Position numbers and translations under genes: made by a program
Notes under the pieces: model-generated
What the model was told of the DNA's origin: nothing
Seen by the model: only the letters and a program-made list of their open reading frames with translations
Databases searched by the model: none
Part shown: positions 389 through 46,033 of the stretch, in pieces
Position numbering within the stretch: position 1 is the first letter of the stretch
Layout: every line of letters starts with the position of its first letter
Assembly: GCF_943181405.1 (NCBI RefSeq)
Contig: NZ_CALPBY010000005.1
Location: 310,001 to 374,000 of the forward strand
Length of the DNA: 64,000 bases
Reading direction: 5' to 3'
From: Cellulosimicrobium sp. Marseille-Q4280
GTDB taxonomy: Bacteria > Actinomycetota > Actinomycetes > Actinomycetales > Cellulomonadaceae

Positions 389-1117
389 ATGGCAGGTGAC
401 GACGACGCGCCCGGCACGACGGCAGGTGGGACCACGGCCGCGACAGCCCTCGCCCCCGGCGTGCCCCGCGCCGACGGCCGGCTCGGGCACGTCGGGACGG
501 CCGCCGCGCCGTCGTGGCTGTCGGAGCGGCTCGTCTCGGGGACGCACGCCGACACGGTCACGGCGTTCCGGCGCGCGCGCGAGACGTTCATCGCGGGCGA
601 GCGGATCGACATGGGTCGGCTCGCGACGTCCCTCGGCGTGGACCGCACGAGCCTGTTCCGGTGGGTCGGCAACCGCGACGCGCTGCTCTCCGAGGTGCTG
701 TGGTCCCTCGCCGTCCCCACGCTCGAGCAGGCCGACGACGCGGCCGCCGGACTGCACGGGGCCGAGCGCGTCGCGTCCGTGCTCACGACGTTCGTCCGCG
801 ACCTCATCACGGCCGGGTACTTCCGCACCTTCCTGCAGCGCGAGCCCGCCCGCGCCCTGCGCCTGCTGACCACCAAGGAGAGCCAGATCCAGCGGCGCTA
901 CGTCGCCGAGGTGGAGGCGCTCGTCGACGCCGAGCTCTCGCCCCGGCCGCTCGGGCGCGACGTCGCCCCGCGCGAGCTCGCCTACCTGCTCGTCCGCATC
1001 AGCGAGTCGTTCACGTACGCCGACCTCATCGCGGGCGACGTGCCGAGCGCGGCGCGCGCGCAGACGGCGTTCGAGCTCGTGCTGCACCTCGACCGACCCG
1101 ACCCCGCGGCGTCGTGA
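389..1117 (+). CDS. QsdR-type TetR-family transcriptional regulator
   Basis: 242-residue DNA-binding repressor candidate. After a low-complexity N-terminus of about 50 residues, a helix-turn-helix of the TetR/QsdR kind is visible ('IDMGRLATSLGVDRTSLFRWVGNRDALLSEV', about residues 72-102). A helical ligand domain follows, with the 'RYVAEVEALVDAEL' and 'ELAYLLVRISESFTYADLIAG' segments characteristic of QsdR regulators. The ATG at 389 gives a normal family length. The reading frame stays open upstream to 251, but that stretch covers the promoter and the palindrome at 331-356, so the later start is preferred. It probably represses itself and the divergent dehydrogenase. The ligand is unknown, perhaps an acyl-CoA or related lipid. 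Confidence 0.82.
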   Translation: MAGDDDAPGTTAGGTTAATALAPGVPRADGRLGHVGTAAAPSWLSERLVSGTHADTVTAFRRARETFIAGERIDMGRLATSLGVDRTSLFRWVGNRDALLSEVLWSLAVPTLEQADDAAAGLHGAERVASVLTTFVRDLITAGYFRTFLQREPARALRLLTTKESQIQRRYVAEVEALVDAELSPRPLGRDVAPRELAYLLVRISESFTYADLIAGDVPSAARAQTAFELVLHLDRPDPAAS

Positions 1118-1190
1118 CGCACGCTGCCGCGCCCGACCGATCGCCGTCGTGCGCGCCACCCGATCCCCGTCGCCTCCCCCGGAGGAGCCC

Positions 1191-1637
1191 GTGACCACTC
1201 CGCCCGCCCCGCCCGCCTACGGCCACCGCTCGCCGTTCCCGACCCGCTGGAACGACGACGACGTCTACGGCCACGTGAACAACACCGTCTACTACGAGGC
1301 GATGGACACCGCGATCAACACGTGGCTCGTGCGCGTCGCGGGACTCGACCGCCTGACCGGTCCCGCGATCGGGCTGTGCGTGAGCAGCTCGTGCGAGTAC
1401 CGCGCGTCGGCGTCCTTCCCGGACCCGCTGGAGGTGGGCGTGCGGGTGGGACGCCTCGGGACGTCGAGCGTCGCGTGGGAGCTGGGCATCCTGCGCGCGG
1501 GTGAGGACGTGCCGATCGCCGAGGGCCGGTTCGTGCACGTCTTCGTGGACCGCGAGACGCGTCGCCCGACCCCCGTCCCGGCGGGCATCCGGGCCGCGAT
1601 CGAGCGCGACCTCCTGGTCCCCGCAGCGGTGAGCTGA
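1191..1637 (+). CDS. acyl-CoA thioesterase (hotdog, YbgC/4HBT type)
   Basis: 148 residues, the usual length of a single hotdog thioesterase. The signature 'TRWNDDDVYGHVNNTVYYEAMDTAINTWL' near the N-terminus matches the 4-hydroxybenzoyl-CoA thioesterase/YbgC helix, where the Asp of 'DxDxxGHVNN' is catalytic. Family members hydrolyse acyl-CoA to free acid and CoA in the cytoplasm. The GTG at 1191 follows GGAGGAG at 1181. The frame is open upstream to 1149 but no better start is seen. It lies 73 bases after the regulator and may be cotranscribed with it. Substrate is unknown. Confidence 0.85.
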   Translation: MTTPPAPPAYGHRSPFPTRWNDDDVYGHVNNTVYYEAMDTAINTWLVRVAGLDRLTGPAIGLCVSSSCEYRASASFPDPLEVGVRVGRLGTSSVAWELGILRAGEDVPIAEGRFVHVFVDRETRRPTPVPAGIRAAIERDLLVPAAVS

Positions 1638-4216: not shown

Positions 4217-5896
4217 ATGACCGCTCCTGGTGACCTCGACCTCTCCCCCACCACCGCTCCGGGTGCCGTGCCCGCCTCGGCGGACGACCCGTCGTCGGGC
4301 ACCGCACCCGACCCCGTCCTCACGGGCCCCGGCTTCGGCACGCTGTCCATCGCCGCGATCCTCGCGGAGACGGCGCACCGCCGGCCCGACGCCACCGCGT
4401 TCCTCGTCGGCGACGCGTCCGTGACCTACGGAGACCTGTGGGCGCAGAGCCGCGCGTACGCGGGCGCGCTGCTCGCGCGCGGCGTCCGGCCGGGCGACCG
4501 CGTCGCGATGCTCGTGCCGAACGTGCCCGACTTCGCGCGCGTCTACTACGGGGCGCTGTCGATCGGCGCCGTCGTGGTGCCGATCCACCTGCTCTTCAAG
4601 GCGGCGGAGATCGAGTTCGTGCTGCGCGACGCCGGGGCGAGCCTTCTCGTCGCCGGCGCGCCGTTCCTCGGGGAGGCGGGACCGGCCGCCGCCGCGGCGG
4701 GGATCCCCACCGTGACCGTGCTCGTACCCGACGCGCTGCGCGACCAGGTCCCGTTCCCGCGCCTGGAGGACGAGGCGGCGCAGGCCGAGCCCGTCCGCAC
4801 GTACGCGTCCGTCAACCCGCTCGCGGCGGCCACGATCCTCTACACGAGCGGGACGACGGGGCGCCCCAAGGGCGCGGTCGGCTCGCACCTCGCGATGATC
4901 GAGCAGGTGCACGTCGCGCTGATCGACACGTTCGACCTGCGGCCCGACGACGTCGTGTTCGGCGGCCTGCCGTTCTTCCACACGTTCGGTCAGATGGCGG
5001 TGCTCAACATCGCGTTCCGCAAGGGCGCGGCGATCGTGCTGCTGCCCAAGTTCGACCCGGACGAGGCGCTCGCCCTGCTGGTGCGGCACCGCGCGACCGT
5101 GTTCACCGCCGTCCCGACGATGTTCGTCGGCATGGTCCAGGCCGCCGAGCGCACGAGCGACCGGCCGCCGCTGCGCTACGCCGTGTCGGGCGGCGCGGCG
5201 CTCCCCGTGCCCCTGCTCGAGGCGTTCTCACGCACGTTCGGCGCCGAGGTCCACGAGGGCTACGGGCTCACCGAGACGTCCCCCACCGCCGCGTTCAACC
5301 CCGTCGGCGAGCCGATCCGGCCCGGGACGGTCGGGCGCCCGCTCTGGGGCGTCGACGTCGAGATCGCCGACGCGGACGTCGACGACCGGGTCGAGCTGCT
5401 CGCGGCGGGCGAGCTCGGCGAGATCGTCGTCCGCGGCCACAACCTGTTCAAGGGCTACCTGGGCAACCCCGAGGCCAACGCGCAGACCGTCGTCGACGGC
5501 TGGTTCCGCACGGGCGACCTCGGCACCAAGGACGCCGACGACATCGTGACCATCGTCGACCGCAAGAAGGACATGATCGTCCGCAACGGGTACAACGTGT
5601 ACCCGAGCGAGGTCGAGGACGTCATGACCGGCCACCCCGCCGTCGCCCAGGTCGCCGTGTTCGGGCTCGCGGACGACACCCACGGCCAGGAGGTCCACGC
5701 CGCCGTCGTGCTCATGCCGGGCCGCAGCGCCGACGCCGCGGAGATCGTCGAGTTCACCAAGGAGCGCGTCGCCGCGTACAAGTACCCGCGCCACGTGCAC
5801 CTCGTCGAGACGCTCCCGCTCGGCGGCTCGGGCAAGGTGCTCAAGCGCGAGCTCGTCGCGTCGTTCGAGGCGGCCCGCTCCACCGAGGGGGCGTGA
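4217..5896 (+). CDS. acyl-CoA synthetase (FadD-like AMP-binding ligase)
   Basis: 559-residue adenylate-forming enzyme. Visible motifs: P-loop 'ILYTSGTTGRPKGA' (about 207-220), 'GYGLTETSP' (about 351), 'DGWFRTGDLG' (about 430), hinge 'DRKKDMIVRNGYNVYP' and the C-terminal catalytic Lys in 'GGSGKVLKREL'. It activates a carboxylic acid to acyl-CoA with ATP. The first 45 residues are low complexity, rich in Pro, Ala and Ser. It starts 48 bases after the dehydrogenase and is the third gene of the operon behind the operator at 1725. It would supply CoA thioesters to the kinase/dehydrogenase pair. Chain length preference cannot be read from sequence. Confidence 0.88.
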   Translation: MTAPGDLDLSPTTAPGAVPASADDPSSGTAPDPVLTGPGFGTLSIAAILAETAHRRPDATAFLVGDASVTYGDLWAQSRAYAGALLARGVRPGDRVAMLVPNVPDFARVYYGALSIGAVVVPIHLLFKAAEIEFVLRDAGASLLVAGAPFLGEAGPAAAAAGIPTVTVLVPDALRDQVPFPRLEDEAAQAEPVRTYASVNPLAAATILYTSGTTGRPKGAVGSHLAMIEQVHVALIDTFDLRPDDVVFGGLPFFHTFGQMAVLNIAFRKGAAIVLLPKFDPDEALALLVRHRATVFTAVPTMFVGMVQAAERTSDRPPLRYAVSGGAALPVPLLEAFSRTFGAEVHEGYGLTETSPTAAFNPVGEPIRPGTVGRPLWGVDVEIADADVDDRVELLAAGELGEIVVRGHNLFKGYLGNPEANAQTVVDGWFRTGDLGTKDADDIVTIVDRKKDMIVRNGYNVYPSEVEDVMTGHPAVAQVAVFGLADDTHGQEVHAAVVLMPGRSADAAEIVEFTKERVAAYKYPRHVHLVETLPLGGSGKVLKRELVASFEAARSTEGA

Positions 5897-39960: not shown

Positions 39961-40093
39961 CTGACCACGATCCCTGGCCGTGGCGAGGGCGGCGCGGACG
40001 AGTTGCGGCACGGAGGACCGCGCGAGAACGTCAGCGGGGGCGGTACGGATCGACGCCCTCCACCGCCGTCACCAGCCTGTCGAGGGAGCCACC

Positions 40094-42004
40094 GTGCCGT
40101 ACACCCCGAAGGACGCCACCGCCACGACCGCCGCCGCGAACCGGGACGACCGGGCGCTCTACGCTCTCGACGACGTCGAGGACTTCGAGACCGCCCGGCA
40201 GGGGAAGATCGCCGACATCCCGGACGGCAAGGTCCGGCTCGCCGACGGGAGCGTCGCCTACGACCGGACCGCCCTGTCGTTCCTCGACGACGACGGCGCA
40301 CCCAACCCGGACACGGTGAACCCGAGCCTGTGGCGGCAGTCCCAGGTGATCCACGAGCCCGGCCTGTACAAGGTCGTCGACCACCTCTACCAGGTGCGCA
40401 ACAACGACATCGGCAACCTCACCATCGTCGAGGGCGACGACGGCCTCGTCGTCATCGACTGCACGACCGGCGTGGAGATCGCGCAACAAGGGCTGGCGCT
40501 GTTCCGCGAGCACGTCGCGGACAAGCCCGTCGTCGCGGTGATCTACACCCACACGCACATCGACCACTACGGCGGGGTCAAGGGCGTCGTCGACGAGGCC
40601 GACGTCGCCTCGGGCAAGGTGCCCGTCATCGCGCCGGGCACGATCGCGAACTTCGACAAGTTCGCGATCGGGGAGAACGTCGTCGCGGGCAACGCGATGA
40701 GCCGCCGCGCGGCCTACGCGTTCGGCAACCTCCTGGACAACGACCCGCACCAGATGATCACCAACGGCATCGCGTCCGTCGGCGGCCACGGGATCACGGT
40801 GTCGTACATCTCGCCCACGGACCCGATCACCGAGACCGGCACGACGCGGAGCCTCGCCGGCCTCACGTTCGAGTTCCTCTACGCGCCGGACACCGAGGCG
40901 CCGGAGGAGATGCACGTCTGGATCCCCGAGCTCAAGGCCCTCACGTGCGCCGAGAACGCGAACCACTCGCTGCACAACATCCAGACCTTGCGCGGCGCGC
41001 GCACGCGCGACGCCCGCAACTTCGCCCGCTACCTCGACGAGACGCTCGTGCGGTGGGGCGACGAGGTCGAGGTCCACTACGGCCCGCACACGTGGCCCGT
41101 GTGGGGCAACGCGAAGGTCGTCGCGTTCCTCGAGTCGCAGCGCGACACGTACAAGTACATCCACGACCAGGCGCTGCGCCTGGCCAACAAGGGGTACACG
41201 CCGCTCGAGGCCGCGGAGGTGGTCGAGCTGCCCGAGGTGCTGCGCCGCCGGTGGTTCAACCGCGGCTACCACGGCACCCTGCACCACAACGTGCGGGCGG
41301 TGTTCACCAAGGAGCTCGGCATGTGGGACGGCGACCCGGTGTCGCTGCACCCGCACACCCCTGTGGACACCGCGAGCCGCTACGTGACCGCGTTCGGCCG
41401 CGACACGATCCTCGCCGAGGGCCGCCGGGCGTTCGAGGAGGGCGACTACCGGTGGGCCGCGCAGGTCCTGCACCACCTCGTGTTCGCCGACCCGGACGAC
41501 CGCGAGGCCAAGGATCTCCAGGCCGACACGTACGAACAGCTCGGCTACCAGGTCGAGGGCCCGCAGTGGCGCGGCATCTACCTCACGGCCGCACGCGAGC
41601 TGCGCGAGGGCGTCATCCCCGCACGGTTCGCGAGCGGGAGCCCGGACACCATCGCCGGGATGCCCGTGGACATCCTCTTCGACTACGCCGCCGTGCACGT
41701 GATCGGTGAGAAGGCGGCCGAGGTCGACGTGCGGTTCGACGTGGACTTCACCGACCGCGGCGAGACCTGGACGGCCTGGGTCGCGAACGGCGTCCTCAAC
41801 GCCCGCCCCGGCGCGTCGACCGACGCCCTCCTCACCGTCCGCGCACCCAAGGCACTGGCCGCCGCGGTGCTCCTGCAACCAGCAGCGGCGGGGAAGCTCG
41901 CGGCGGCCGGGAAGGTCACGCTCGACGGCGACCCCGCCGTCCTCGACGCCTACGCCTCGGTCCTCGACGAGTTCGACCCGAACTTCGCCATCGTCACACC
42001 GTGA
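40094..42004 (+). CDS. alkyl sulfatase (SdsA1/YjcS-type metallo-beta-lactamase fold)
   Basis: 636 residues from GTG 40094 (GAGGGAG upstream). Metal site 'HTHIDH' at 153-158, then 'AENANHSLHNIQTLRGARTRDARNF', 'YGPHTWPVWGN', the dimerisation domain and a C-terminal SCP2-like domain ('VLNARPGASTDALLTVRAPKALAAAVL'). No signal peptide is seen, so it acts in the cytoplasm. Type III alkylsulfatases hydrolyse primary or secondary alkyl sulfates such as SDS to alcohol plus sulfate. The alcohol could feed the fatty-acid genes nearby, and sulfate the sulfur genes downstream, but no operon link is visible. Confidence 0.92.
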   Translation: MPYTPKDATATTAAANRDDRALYALDDVEDFETARQGKIADIPDGKVRLADGSVAYDRTALSFLDDDGAPNPDTVNPSLWRQSQVIHEPGLYKVVDHLYQVRNNDIGNLTIVEGDDGLVVIDCTTGVEIAQQGLALFREHVADKPVVAVIYTHTHIDHYGGVKGVVDEADVASGKVPVIAPGTIANFDKFAIGENVVAGNAMSRRAAYAFGNLLDNDPHQMITNGIASVGGHGITVSYISPTDPITETGTTRSLAGLTFEFLYAPDTEAPEEMHVWIPELKALTCAENANHSLHNIQTLRGARTRDARNFARYLDETLVRWGDEVEVHYGPHTWPVWGNAKVVAFLESQRDTYKYIHDQALRLANKGYTPLEAAEVVELPEVLRRRWFNRGYHGTLHHNVRAVFTKELGMWDGDPVSLHPHTPVDTASRYVTAFGRDTILAEGRRAFEEGDYRWAAQVLHHLVFADPDDREAKDLQADTYEQLGYQVEGPQWRGIYLTAARELREGVIPARFASGSPDTIAGMPVDILFDYAAVHVIGEKAAEVDVRFDVDFTDRGETWTAWVANGVLNARPGASTDALLTVRAPKALAAAVLLQPAAAGKLAAAGKVTLDGDPAVLDAYASVLDEFDPNFAIVTP

Positions 42005-42475: not shown

Positions 42476-43912
42476 TCAGTCGGCCGGACCGCACCCCGCG
42501 GCGTCGGCGAGGAATCCTGCCGCGGCGGTCGCGAAGAGCCCTTCGAGACCGGAGCCCGCGGGGACGGGACGCGGGTCGTCGACGACGGTCCAGCACCCGT
42601 CGACCACGGCGTACCGGACCTGCGGCCCCTCCTCCACGTACGCGCGCACGGCGTCGACGAGGCGCGCGACCTCCGCGCCCGACGTCCCGACGCCGACCGA
42701 CGCGCGGATGGCACCGGCGTCGTGCCCGAGCCGGGCGAGCAGCGGGTGCGCGCAGAACCGGCCGTCGCGGACACCGATGCCGTGCTCCGCCGACAGGTAC
42801 GCGGCGACGAGGCCCGGGTCGTGCCCGGTCACGGAGAACGTCACGACGCCCACCGGGTCGACGGCGTCCGGCCACACGCTCACGACCTGCACGCCGTCGA
42901 TCGCGGACAGCCCGGCGACGAGCCCGGCACGCAGCGCCGCCTCGTGCCCGTGCAGTGCGGCCGGGTCGAGGCCCGCGAGGGTGTCGCACGCCGCGGCGAG
43001 GGCGACGGCGCCGACCACGTTGGGCGAGCCGGCCTCGTGGCGCGCGGGGGCCGGCTGCCAGTCGGTGCCGTCGACGCGCACCTGGCGCACCGCCCCACCG
43101 CCCGCGAGGTACGGGGTGCCCGCGTCGAGCCAGTCGCGGCGACCGACGAGGGTGCCCGCGCCGAACGGCGCGTAGGTCTTGTGCCCCGAGAAGGCGACGT
43201 AGTCGACGCCCGTCTCCGCGAGCGAGAAGCCACGGTGCGGGACGAGCTGGGCGCCGTCGAGCACGACCCGCGCCCCGGCGTCGTGCGCGATCCGCACGAC
43301 GTCCGCGACGGGCAGCGACTCACCCGTGACGTTGGAGGCCCCCGTGACCGCGAGGAGCGCGTAGTCGAAGCGCGCGAGCTCCGCGCGCAGCCCGGACAGC
43401 GTCTCGGCGACGCTCACGCCGCCCGCGAGGACCGTCGCGCCGCCCGTCCGCTGCCACGGCAGGAGGTTCGCGTGGTGCTCGACGTCGAGGACGAGCACGC
43501 GGCCGGGCGACCCGTCGGGGTTCGCCGGCACGCAGCCCGCGAGGAGGTTGAGCGAGTCGGTCGTGTTGCGCGTGACGACGGTGACGTCCTCCTCGCGCGC
43601 GCCGACGAACGACCCGATCGTGCGGCGCGAGGCCTCGTAGAGCGCCGTCGACACCTGGGAGAGGTAGCCCGCGCCGCGGTGCACGCTCGCGTACAGCGGC
43701 AGGACCTCGGTGACGCGGTCGGCGACCGCGCGGAGCGCCGGTGCCGACGCGGCGACGTCGAGGTTCGCGTACGGGACGGTGCGGCCGTCCACGAGCGGGA
43801 CCAGCGTGTCGGCGCCGACCACGGGGAGCAGGGCCGGCAGCGCGGCGAGGTCCTCCGTCCGAGCGCCCGTCGCGGCGGCCGTCGGACAGGAGAGTTCGGC
43901 GAGAGCGGTCAT
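42476..43912 (-). CDS. cysteine desulfurase-like class V aminotransferase under SAM-IV riboswitch
   Basis: 478 residues. PLP Lys245 in 'FSGHKTYAPFGAGTLVG', 'VLDVEHHANLLPWQR' and 'VLDGAQLVPHRGFS' match the SufS/CsdA fold, and 'VRDGRFCAHPLLARLG' near the C-terminus keeps the persulfide-forming Cys. So it probably removes sulfur from cysteine or a related compound. A SAM-IV aptamer lies 71 bases upstream on the same strand, so the gene is shut down when S-adenosylmethionine is plentiful, placing it in sulfur/methionine supply rather than housekeeping Fe-S assembly. ATG 43912 has GGAGG at 8 bases. The last 40 residues are an extra tail. Confidence 0.88.
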   Translation of the reverse strand: MTALAELSCPTAAATGARTEDLAALPALLPVVGADTLVPLVDGRTVPYANLDVAASAPALRAVADRVTEVLPLYASVHRGAGYLSQVSTALYEASRRTIGSFVGAREEDVTVVTRNTTDSLNLLAGCVPANPDGSPGRVLVLDVEHHANLLPWQRTGGATVLAGGVSVAETLSGLRAELARFDYALLAVTGASNVTGESLPVADVVRIAHDAGARVVLDGAQLVPHRGFSLAETGVDYVAFSGHKTYAPFGAGTLVGRRDWLDAGTPYLAGGGAVRQVRVDGTDWQPAPARHEAGSPNVVGAVALAAACDTLAGLDPAALHGHEAALRAGLVAGLSAIDGVQVVSVWPDAVDPVGVVTFSVTGHDPGLVAAYLSAEHGIGVRDGRFCAHPLLARLGHDAGAIRASVGVGTSGAEVARLVDAVRAYVEEGPQVRYAVVDGCWTVVDDPRPVPAGSGLEGLFATAAAGFLADAAGCGPAD

Positions 43913-43983
43913 GGCACGGTCCTCCGAGGTCGTGTCGGGGAGGTGCTCCCCGCGCTTGCCGCGCGCCGGTCGGCGTGCGGCCC

Positions 43984-44062
43984 GGTCGTCACCCGGGGCA
44001 CCCCGCCGCGAGAGGAGGGTTGCCGGCCAGCAAACCGGGGTTTCACGCTGGCACTCATGACC
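43984..44062 (-). promoter_or_regulatory. SAM riboswitch, SAM-IV type
   Basis: Read on the minus strand: closing stem GGTC (44062-44059) with GACC (43987-43984), then ATGAGTGCCAGC, GCTGGCCGGCAACCCTCC, GGGGTGCCCC and GGGTGACGACC in the order and wording of the actinobacterial SAM-IV consensus (GCCAGC/GCTGGC stem with kink turn, conserved CCGGCAACC, pseudoknot segments). Downstream, an ACCTCC-containing hairpin about 25 bases ahead of the GGAGG ribosome site could act as anti-Shine-Dalgarno. It controls the desulfurase-like gene at 43912. Confidence 0.87.
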
Positions 44063-44210
44063 TGTCACCCAGGATGTGCGCGGGGCGCTCGTCGTGTCAA
44101 CCGGTGGTCAGCAGGTCTCGCATCGCGGGACGACGCACTGCCGCCCGGCCCTTCCACGACGCGAGACGCACGTTCCGGCCACAGGGCACCGTGACGTACG
44201 ATCCGAGCAA

Positions 44211-44306
44211 CCATCCGGAGCGGCCGAGTGACGTGGCACGTCGACGCCGCAGCAACCCCCCGACCCGAGAGGGCACGGGCGAGGGTGCTACTGCCACGAT
44301 CGATGG
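44211..44306 (+). promoter_or_regulatory. SAM riboswitch, SAM-I (S-box) type
   Basis: P1 strands CCATC (44211-44215) and GATGG (44302-44306). After P1 comes GGAGCGGCCGAGTGAC, aligning base for base with the S-box consensus (GAG-GG--GAG-GAC). The P2 stem is GCGG/CCGC with stem-loop GACGT-GGC-ACGTC, then GCAACC (44252-44257), and GGGTGCTACTGCC (P4 with the GGTGCTA core). The 3' strand of P1 runs into the GGAGGAG ribosome site of the gene at 44316, so SAM binding would directly hide the ribosome site. Confidence 0.85.
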
Positions 44307-44315
44307 AGGAGAACC

Positions 44316-44783
44316 ATGAGCGAACTGACTCCCCGACCCGCCGTCGGCTACGCGGGCGACATCACGCCGCAGGAGGCGTGGGACCTGCTCGTCGCGGACG
44401 AGCGCGCCGTCCTCGTGGACGTCCGCACCGAGGGCGAGTGGCGCACCGTCGGCGTGCCCGACGTCGCGGGGCTCGGCCGCGAGGTCGTCTTCGACGAGTG
44501 GGTGACGCCCTTCGGGCCCAACCCCGCTTTCGTGGACCGGCTCGCCCAGGCGGGCCTCGCCCCGGGCGACGAGCGACCCGTCGTGTTCCTGTGCCGCTCC
44601 GGCCAGCGCTCGATCGGCGCCGCGCGCGCCGCGACCGCCGCCGGGCTCGGCCCCGCCTACAACGTCCTCGAGGGCTTCGAGGGCGCGCCCGGCTTCTCCG
44701 GCGTGCGCGACGCCGAGGGCTGGAAGGTCCGCGGTCTGCCCACCACCGCCTACGCCGACACCGAGGGCGAGGCCGGTCGGTGA
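44316..44783 (+). CDS. rhodanese-domain protein (metZ partner)
   Basis: 155 residues, single rhodanese domain. 'AVLVDVRTEGEWRTVGVPDV' is the N-terminal CDC25-like motif, and active-site Cys lies in 'VVFLCRSGQRSIGAA' (Cys93 region), with 'YNVLEGFEGAPG' after it. It carries sulfane sulfur as persulfide. It overlaps metZ by 4 bases (GTGA), the same pairing known in Mycobacterium (Rv0390-metZ). It likely supplies or manages the sulfide used by MetZ. Controlled by the S-box aptamer just upstream. Confidence 0.92.
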   Translation: MSELTPRPAVGYAGDITPQEAWDLLVADERAVLVDVRTEGEWRTVGVPDVAGLGREVVFDEWVTPFGPNPAFVDRLAQAGLAPGDERPVVFLCRSGQRSIGAARAATAAGLGPAYNVLEGFEGAPGFSGVRDAEGWKVRGLPTTAYADTEGEAGR

Positions 44784-46033
44784 GCGCGGGAGACGGCGTC
44801 GGGCAGGTCCCGGGCGGCTCCGGCCGCAAGCCGCTGCCCGCGAGCGCCCGTCCCGCGACGCTCGCCGTGCGGGGCGGCAACGCGCGCACGGAGTTCCAGG
44901 AGACGTCCGAGGCGCTGTTCCTCACGCAGGGCTACACGTACGACCGCGCGTCCGACGCCGAGGCCGCCTTCAAGGGCGAGCTCGACCGGTTCGTGTACTC
45001 GCGGTACGGCAACCCGACCGTGCACACGTTCGAGGAGCGGCTGCGCCTGATCGAGGGCGCGGAGGCCTGCTACGCGACGGCGTCGGGCATGTCGGCCGTG
45101 TTCACGTCGCTCGCGGCGCTCGTGCAGTCGGGGTCGCGGATCGTCGCGGCGCGCGCGCTGTTCGGGTCGAGCGTCGTGATCTTCGACGAGATCTTCGCCA
45201 AGTGGGGCGTGCGGACCGACTACGTCGACGGTCACGTGCTCTCCCAGTGGGAGGAGGCGCTGTCGACGCCGGCGGACGTCGTGTTCTTCGAGACGCCGTC
45301 GAACCCCATGCAGGACATCGTCGACGCGCGCCGCGTGGCCGACCTCGCGCACGCGGCCGGCGCCGTCGTGGTGCTCGACAACGTGTTCGCGACGCCGCTC
45401 ATGCAGAAGCCGCTCGAGCTCGGCGCGGACGTCGTCGTGTACTCCGCGACGAAGCACATCGACGGCCAGGGGCGCGTGCTCGGCGGGGCGATCCTCGGGA
45501 CCGAGGAGTACATCGGCGGGCCGGTCCAGACGTTCATCCGCAACACGGGCCCGACCCTCTCGGCGTTCAACGCGTGGGTCCTGCTCAAGGGCCTGGAGAC
45601 GATGCCCGTGCGCGTGGCCGCCCAGAACGCCGGGGCCGAGCGGATCGCCCGGGTGCTCGAGGGCCTGCCGGGGATCGCGCGGGTGCGCTACCCGTTCCTC
45701 GAGTCCCACCCGCAGGTCGAGCTCGCGCGCTCGCAGCAGACGGGTGGCGGGACGGTCGTGACGTTCGACCTCGCGGTGCCCGAGGGGACGGATCCGGAGA
45801 CCGCGAAGAAGCGCGCGTTCACGTTCCTCGACGCGCTGCAGGTCGTGGACATCTCCAACAACCTGGGCGACGCGAAGTCCATGGTCACGCACCCGGCGAC
45901 GACGACGCACCGCAAGCTCGGACCCGAGGGCCGCGCGGCGGTCGGGATCGCCGAGACGACGGTCCGGCTGTCGGTGGGGCTCGAGGACCCGCTCGACGTG
46001 ATCGAGGACGTCGAGCAGGCGCTGCACGCCTGA
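44780..46033 (+). CDS. metZ: O-succinylhomoserine sulfhydrylase
   Basis: 417 residues, Cys/Met-metabolism PLP enzyme. PLP Lys225 in 'VYSATKHIDGQGRVLGG', 'YSRYGNPTVHTFEERLRLIEGAEACYATASGMSAV', 'FFETPSNPMQDIVD' and 'ETTVRLSVGLEDPLDVIEDVEQAL' are all typical of MetZ. It makes homocysteine directly from an activated homoserine and sulfide, bypassing cystathionine. GTG 44780 overlaps the rhodanese stop. Repression by SAM through the S-box fits its place in methionine synthesis. O-acetylhomoserine as substrate (MetY-like) is less likely given length and sequence. Confidence 0.9.
   Translation: MSAGDGVGQVPGGSGRKPLPASARPATLAVRGGNARTEFQETSEALFLTQGYTYDRASDAEAAFKGELDRFVYSRYGNPTVHTFEERLRLIEGAEACYATASGMSAVFTSLAALVQSGSRIVAARALFGSSVVIFDEIFAKWGVRTDYVDGHVLSQWEEALSTPADVVFFETPSNPMQDIVDARRVADLAHAAGAVVVLDNVFATPLMQKPLELGADVVVYSATKHIDGQGRVLGGAILGTEEYIGGPVQTFIRNTGPTLSAFNAWVLLKGLETMPVRVAAQNAGAERIARVLEGLPGIARVRYPFLESHPQVELARSQQTGGGTVVTFDLAVPEGTDPETAKKRAFTFLDALQVVDISNNLGDAKSMVTHPATTTHRKLGPEGRAAVGIAETTVRLSVGLEDPLDVIEDVEQALHA

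Follow-up and report, generated by a model that had tools for sequence, protein, structure and literature searches.

Two divergent SAM-clan aptamers, one of them without P4, between a desulfurase-like gene and rhodanese-metZ in Cellulosimicrobium

The locus and its two aptamers

The window studied here is a stretch of 64 kb from the actinobacterium Cellulosimicrobium sp. Marseille-Q4280. On its minus strand a PLP enzyme resembling cysteine desulfurases is encoded at 43912-42476, with an ATG at 43912 (Aminotran_5, PF00266, E 1.5e-77). The protein contains the motifs SGHKTYAPFG and RFCAHPL and is nearest to SufS, yet with 278 bits it stays below the curated SufS cut-off of 475 bits. In the opposite direction a rhodanese-domain protein with the loop CRSGQRS (44316-44783, plus strand; PF00581, E 5.7e-8) is followed by metZ for O-succinylhomoserine sulfhydrylase (44780-46033, plus strand; NF005870, 729.8 bits against a cut-off of 618). 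Going by family names, a single pathway that carries sulfur from cysteine to homocysteine could be made up of the desulfurase-like enzyme, the rhodanese and MetZ. Another sulfur-related neighbour, an alkyl-sulfatase gene of the SDS hydrolase type, lies at 39980-42004 of the window (plus strand), and some 0.5 kb separate it from the point where the desulfurase gene ends.

The whole window was searched with cmscan against the 4227 families of Rfam 15, and a repeat on 601 bases gave the same two aptamers. Only two matches in the 64 kb reach the gathering score: SAM-IV (RF00634) on the minus strand at 44062-43947 with 111.3 bits (cut-off 38, E 1.1e-19, model positions 1-116 and thus full length), and SAM/S-box (RF00162) on the plus strand at 44208-44309 with 49.0 bits (cut-off 44.4, E 3.3e-8). 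They are divergent and separated by 145 bases in Rfam coordinates. The pair, two SAM-clan aptamers that differ in architecture and lie on opposite strands, is real and, as described below, conserved. The initial annotation had placed a SAM-IV aptamer on the minus strand and a SAM-I aptamer on the plus strand, each upstream of a named gene. The covariance models bear this out with a significant match on each strand, SAM-IV directly before the desulfurase-like gene and the plus element directly before rhodanese-metZ. The interval given for SAM-IV, 43984-44062, covers the core only; because the match spans the full model including P5 and PK-2, the element is longer and extends to 43947. For the plus element the interval 44211-44306 was correct, but the RNA is not a complete SAM-I aptamer, since P4 is absent.

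In the whole genome two SAM matches (the window copy and a copy before metF) and two SAM-IV matches exceed the cut-off. The second SAM-IV, outside the window at G000:C5:290841-290943 (L242), scores 71.7 bits. SAM-I/IV (RF01725) has no match at E <= 10 anywhere in the genome, and was dismissed as an identity for the plus element. A hit to mir-4449 between the aptamers was attributed to chance (19.9 bits against 71 required). Single-strand minimum free energy folds were no better than those of shuffled sequences (z -1.1, 34 of 200 as good; z -0.1, 83 of 200). Folding energies are therefore uninformative here, and the case for the aptamers stands on covariance models and covariation.

The minus-strand aptamer (43947-44062) comprises P1, P2a/b, P3, PK-1, P5 and PK-2. 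According to the Rfam alignments (22 sequences, with L122 deviant at the 3' end) P5 and the 3' strand of PK-2 follow P1, and there is no P4. It agrees with SAM-IV in every feature tested, namely score, full length, P5, PK-2 and lack of P4. SAM-I and SAM-IV belong to one clan with a common binding core, as stated in passages of PMC6890682. The description of the two RNAs as structurally different sensors is therefore right for the periphery, while the core is shared. According to the same passages, the turn in SAM-IV has 4 nt and does not resemble the kink of SAM-I, so that the kink-turn once ascribed to both aptamers fits the plus element only. There the closing helices and the kink-turn do come in the right order, with the gap at P4 previously unreported.

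A SAM-I-type element without P4

In the plus-strand element the 5' strand of P1, CCAUC (44211-44215), pairs with GAUGG at 44302-44306. P2a (GCGGC/GCCGC) and P2b (GUG/CAC) occupy 44220-44250 and enclose a kink-turn-like internal loop, judged by its GA..GA sequence only, with L2 at 44231-44236. P3 (AGCA-A-CCC/GGG-UGCU, 44251-44289) carries a GAGA-capped extension assigned by eye. From P3 to P1 there are just 12 nucleotides, ACUGCCACGAUC (44290-44301), in place of J3/4-P4-J4/1, and inside this linker CCACG (44294-44298) forms PK-1 with CGUGG (44232-44236) in L2. An alternative, shifted PK-1 (GCUA directly after GGUG) was discarded: U44289 is taken up by its P3 partner A44251, and covariation is seen at the canonical position. 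The Shine-Dalgarno sequence GGAGG of the rhodanese gene (44305-44309) takes its first two bases from the end of P1, and the ATG follows at 44316. The P4 region is nearly empty in the Rfam alignment, and the P4 helix of the four-way junction is absent. P5 and PK-2 of SAM-IV are absent as well; the coding sequence begins 9 nt after P1, too close for a PK-2 strand to fit in between. Its P2 is interrupted, and the uninterrupted P2 with PK-2 of SAM-I/IV is not found. To our knowledge P4 is present in every solved SAM-I structure.

A first alignment of 31 sequences had 97.8% of 770 cells paired and both-side changes at 5 pairs. For the wider set we used R1, our own covariance model of the P4-less structure, built without PK-1; the window sequence, included in R1, scores 96.3 bits. 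From selected loci (99 sources; 90 sources) 100 rows matched. Nine were left out as canonical or ambiguous (L157, L160, L161, L165, L168, L221, L224, L228, L229), and weak rows (L218-L220, L222, L223, L225-L227, L230) were retained, giving 91 selected actinobacterial sequences, 90 of them distinct and the window included. All 91 have a linker of 10-13 nt, in 72 cases of exactly 12; the corresponding 98 of 100 R1 matches include the nine canonical or ambiguous rows, whose linkers are artefacts of the P4-less model. Among the 91 rows 98.5% of 2230 cells are paired, and 18 of 25 pairs show both-side changes. Such changes occupy 194 cells against a shuffled mean of 29.8 (none of 500 shuffles as high), and controls with a slid structure, which keep the relatedness, pair in at most 47.3%. 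All five pairs of P2a change on both sides somewhere in this set. The same is true for the five pairs of PK-1 (in 7, 14, 9, 1 and 2 sequences, with 10 cells unpaired), although PK-1 was not part of R1, and its variants include CUGG/CCAG, GUGG/CCAC, CAGG/CCUG, CGGG/CCCG and CUAG/CUAG.

Passages of PMC6890682 compare three architectures in this clan: SAM-I and SAM-I/IV both possess P4, PK-1 is missing from SAM-I/IV, and SAM-IV lacks P4 and has P5 together with PK-2; an additional PK-2 of SAM-I/IV is mentioned in a part of PMC8525861. The plus element resembles SAM-I in P1, the kink-turn-like loop between P2a and P2b, the GCAAC/GGUGC core of P3 and the place of PK-1, as well as in the ribosome binding site at P1, which is reported for SAM-I in a passage of PMC2258182; it differs from SAM-I by its 12-nt linker to P1 without P4. 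Like SAM-IV it has the clan core and PK-1 and no P4, whereas P5 and PK-2 are lacking and the kink-turn-like P2 loop replaces the 4-nt turn described for SAM-IV (PMC6890682, in part). From SAM-I/IV, which belongs to the same clan and has the same core, it differs in having PK-1 but neither P4 (both after passages of PMC6890682) nor the extra PK-2 (after a part of PMC8525861). A PK-1 without P4 or PK-2 is thus a combination outside the three clan architectures compared in those passages of PMC6890682. A part of PMC3764141 lists highly conserved SAM-I nucleotides, most of which look kept in a mapping by eye; the exceptions are U4, a C in this element, and A61, which varies among the relatives. 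Because Rfam score, core and PK-1 fit SAM-I but the P4 feature fails, we call the element a P4-less SAM-I variant.

One could object that this RNA does have a P4, only a short or atypical one, and is structurally an ordinary SAM-I aptamer with nothing new. The Rfam SAM model does take the plus element, by a mere 4.6 bits over the cut-off, and also 18 of 20 further P4-less loci (all except L152 and L204). As scored, RF00162 therefore already takes in such RNAs, and there may be some among its seed sequences. We regard this objection as unlikely to hold, as the linker of 10-13 nt in all 91 rows, about five nucleotides of which form the covarying PK-1, leaves no space for a hairpin. Most of the weaker actinobacterial SAM-I matches (L157-L173), on the other hand, have a longer stretch with a P4-like hairpin at this place when inspected by eye, which means that P4-bearing and P4-less forms both occur in the phylum. 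R1 matches below about 58 bits in other families are in part canonical SAM-I aptamers with a P4-like hairpin, so the R1 tallies of 158/296, 127/297 and 77/246 are not counts of P4-less elements.

That the plus element is a degraded relic which no longer binds SAM might be read from its low Rfam score and the missing peripheral helix, but we find this very improbable. Compensatory changes run across families, and P1, the kink-turn-like P2, P3 and PK-1 are all retained. Further, a second copy stands before metF in the same genome, methionine-pathway genes follow these elements, and one genome (G501) has as many as 13 R1 matches, counted irrespective of P4.

The genes behind P4-less elements were called by script for 60 elements, which represent the best-scoring part of the searches rather than a random sample and do not include the named rhodanese loci. 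Of these, 45 gave a protein, 13 had no long ORF and two (L185, L154) had doubtful frames. The 45 proteins comprise 18 MTHFR (metF), seven PALP (threonine synthase by NCBIfam), three with a homocysteine S-methyltransferase domain, two each of Meth_synt_2, rhodanese, AhpC/TSA and acyl-CoA dehydrogenase, one ABC transporter and a mixed remainder. The pattern points to the methionine pathway, as SAM sensing would lead one to expect.

Some further arrangements were seen around these elements. In seven loci of other families (L144, L147, L151, L178, L195, L197, L200) the P4-less aptamer is followed by a leader ORF, 25-34 codons long and cysteine-rich at its end, that begins at the first start codon (for example SRRHIDLCRRGSAACR and RRRLHVDLCRVGACSCTCR) and looks like a cysteine-sensing attenuator peptide stacked on the SAM switch. 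In the window's genome the Shine-Dalgarno sequence of the metF riboswitch (L001, 1602-1724) opens an ORF of about 40 codons, the stop of which overlaps the GTG from which metF is readable; short ORFs also precede metF in several relatives. L063 has two P4-less elements about 1 kb apart, at 387-482 before a metF-like and at 1503-1592 before a metE-like ORF. Four genomes of family f54 (G501, G584, G572, G477) have 9 to 13 R1 matches each at E <= 1e-6, counted irrespective of P4. In G501, five of the listed matches lie within about 33 kb, which looks like a large SAM regulon.

Conservation of the divergent pair

A search with the rhodanese protein led to 80 named loci, the best 80 of at least 545 confirmed stretches, the nearest being from Cellulosimicrobium. 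They were typed by Rfam, R1 and tblastn. A plus-type element precedes the rhodanese gene in 48 of these best 80, whereas in 11, all from Nocardiaceae (Nocardia, Antrihabitans, Aldersonia), a SAM-IV aptamer stands before rhodanese-metZ on the same strand. Neither element was found at the thresholds used in the other 21 (Mycobacterium, Mycolicibacterium, Rhodococcus, Demequina and one MAG), and metZ, too, is without a match in the MAG and the nine Demequina loci. The Rfam cut-off is reached by the plus element in 25 of the 48 loci. The 48 of 80 are owed to R1, in whose training 15 of the 48 took part, and the difference suggests that actinobacterial methionine regulons are probably under-annotated.

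In 45 of the 48 plus-element loci a SAM-IV aptamer lies on the minus strand with a desulfurase homologue beyond it. The three others (L072, L118, L122) have the plus element without SAM-IV and desulfurase at this place; in L122 a SAM-IV is located elsewhere (5314-5424, plus strand). At E <= 0.01 both classes occur in 130 of 150 sampled family genomes, and each of the two classes in 134 of 150. The view that such an arrangement is uncommon can thus not be upheld for this lineage, at least among the best 80 of the 545 or more stretches. In a tree of 69 MetZ proteins, computed without L073 (short) and without the window's own MetZ, a fully supported branch separates 47 plus-element rows from 11 SAM-IV rows and 11 rows without a switch. 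Outside the family, 20 P4-less loci of about 3 kb each were given to Rfam and one (L156, family f10) has a divergent SAM-IV nearby. There the SAM-IV precedes a desulfurase-like gene, and the P4-less SAM-I points to a gene resembling 2-oxoglutarate/Fe(II) oxygenases. This oxygenase (530-1375, minus strand) has a weak match to the WelO5 halogenase and sits beside an unassigned protein, perhaps within a secondary-metabolite cluster.

Between the two aptamers of the window, candidate promoters can be proposed. For the minus strand TTGACA (44095-44100) may serve as -35 and, as a weak candidate, CATCCT (44076-44071) as -10; for the plus strand TACGAT (44197-44202) may be the -10. By eye, TTGAC recurs about 38 nt before SAM-IV in relatives, and TACGAT or TAGCAT about 8 nt before P1 in most of them (not in L077, L086, L092 and L103). 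From these positions, each leader appears to begin at the very start of its aptamer, the plus transcript at about the first base of P1. Upstream of each promoter there is a GAGAC half-site, on the minus strand at 44115-44119, 57 nt before the SAM-IV aptamer, and on the plus strand at 44163-44167, 47 nt before P1. Within 75 nt GAGAC or GTCTC is found in 41 of 46 loci on the minus side (shuffled mean 5.8) and in 45 of 49 on the plus side (shuffled mean 6.0), with shuffles that ignore relatedness and with short gaps in which one site may count on both sides. GAGAC itself lies mostly between -56 and -58 on the minus side and between -45 and -48 on the plus side. A dyad TGAGAC-N4-GTCTCA was rejected as operator: with 3 mismatches, 29 matches would be expected in the window and nine occur, all outside the region between the aptamers; genome-wide the pattern is matched 48 times and its reversed control 20 times. 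Only the positioned half-sites stand out, and these are perhaps the site of a sulfur regulator. GTCTC is also present before metF (L001, about 1448).

Does the layout itself matter? It may be a by-product of two neighbours which each keep their own leader, with no coordination through the shared region. The gap between the aptamers, measured in 46 loci with the window included, speaks for this in that it reaches 2749 nt and exceeds 700 nt in 13 of them. It is 85-190 nt in 31 loci, however, and below 300 nt in 32; the pair is retained in 45 of the 48 plus-element loci from the best 80 of at least 545; and the half-sites, which recur at similar distances from the two promoters, hint at a common regulator, although the loci are related and the shuffles ignore kinship. 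We take the by-product explanation seriously, at somewhat below an even chance.

Proposed control by SAM and its meaning

We consider it probable, and hold this with good confidence, that the divergent SAM-sensing leaders set one sulfur-to-homocysteine module in which both genes are OFF at high SAM. In the minus mRNA the complete SAM-IV aptamer near the predicted transcription start would control the desulfurase-like gene, and in the plus mRNA the P4-less SAM-I aptamer would make up almost the entire 5' leader of rhodanese-metZ. Plentiful SAM would bridge P1 and P3 of the plus aptamer, so that P1 closes. As P1 runs into the Shine-Dalgarno sequence of the rhodanese gene, its closed 3' strand should keep ribosomes from rhodanese-metZ, and SAM should block translation. 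P1 runs straight into the Shine-Dalgarno sequence in at least 41 of 49 loci, and in three of the eight misses the pattern had caught another GATG; in the other five relatives (L077, L092, L086, L117, L121) the Shine-Dalgarno sequence is not directly at P1. This mode of control is already known for SAM-I.

On the minus strand a candidate switching hairpin with a 7-bp stem, CGGGGAG-cac-CTCCCCG (43936-43952), lies between the aptamer and the Shine-Dalgarno sequence GGAGG of the desulfurase-like gene (43921-43925). Its 5' arm overlaps the 3' strand of PK-2 (43955-43950) and its 3' arm is able to pair with the Shine-Dalgarno sequence. SAM would stabilise P1 and PK-2; PK-2 would then capture the 5' arm, and the C-rich 3' arm set free in this way could cover the Shine-Dalgarno sequence of the desulfurase. 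High SAM would accordingly turn both desulfurase and rhodanese-metZ OFF, and low SAM would leave them ON. The best stem downstream of SAM-IV is longer than the shuffled mean of its locus in just 31 of 46 loci and not in the other 15, which makes the hairpin the weakest step of the mechanism; in the window the desulfurase Shine-Dalgarno sequence is partly paired in both predicted states.

The SAM-IV leader might instead act by transcription termination or processing rather than by hiding the Shine-Dalgarno sequence. Passages of PMC8269248 describe a premature transcript at a SAM-IV leader in Streptomyces clavuligerus before an aminotransferase class V gene, that is, the same riboswitch class and the same annotated kind of gene as here, which favours transcriptional over translational control of the Streptomyces gene and keeps termination in play here; a divergent SAM-I partner is not mentioned in those passages. 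A hairpin directly after PK-2, as present in the window and many relatives, would suit termination too. Against it stand the lack of a T-run after the hairpin in the window sequence and the ability of the 3' arm to pair with the Shine-Dalgarno sequence, and a passage of PMC12452182 ascribes to Actinomycetota a tendency to translational riboswitches. All in all we see termination or processing as a considerable possibility that falls short of being the probable one, and masking of the Shine-Dalgarno sequence stays our preferred model for this leader.

The pair is mostly of known kinds, and one structural point, the missing P4, looks new. Searches of CC-licensed papers brought up no description of a SAM-I aptamer lacking P4 or of SAM-IV and SAM-I as a divergent pair; Weinberg 2008 (on SAM-IV) and Trausch 2014 (on the SAM clan) could remark on P4-less members. 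Tentatively, with a confidence that comes close to even without reaching it, we propose that the SAM-I/SAM-IV clan has a fourth architecture in actinobacteria, which keeps the kink-turn and PK-1 and has no P4, P5 or PK-2. It would be widespread in methionine regulons, with P1 wired to the ribosome binding site, and current models would under-call it. Its back-to-back placement with SAM-IV in Cellulosimicrobium and relatives would let two architectures with one binding pocket serve two halves of a pathway with different thresholds or kinetics.

Natural P4-less aptamers would reveal what the clan fold can do without, and they would offer a shorter scaffold for structural work. The rhodanese-metZ operon, moreover, is one in which the riboswitch class differs by lineage, and the divergent pair is a natural side-by-side test, within one cell, of whether a SAM-I-type and a SAM-IV-type sensor differ in threshold.
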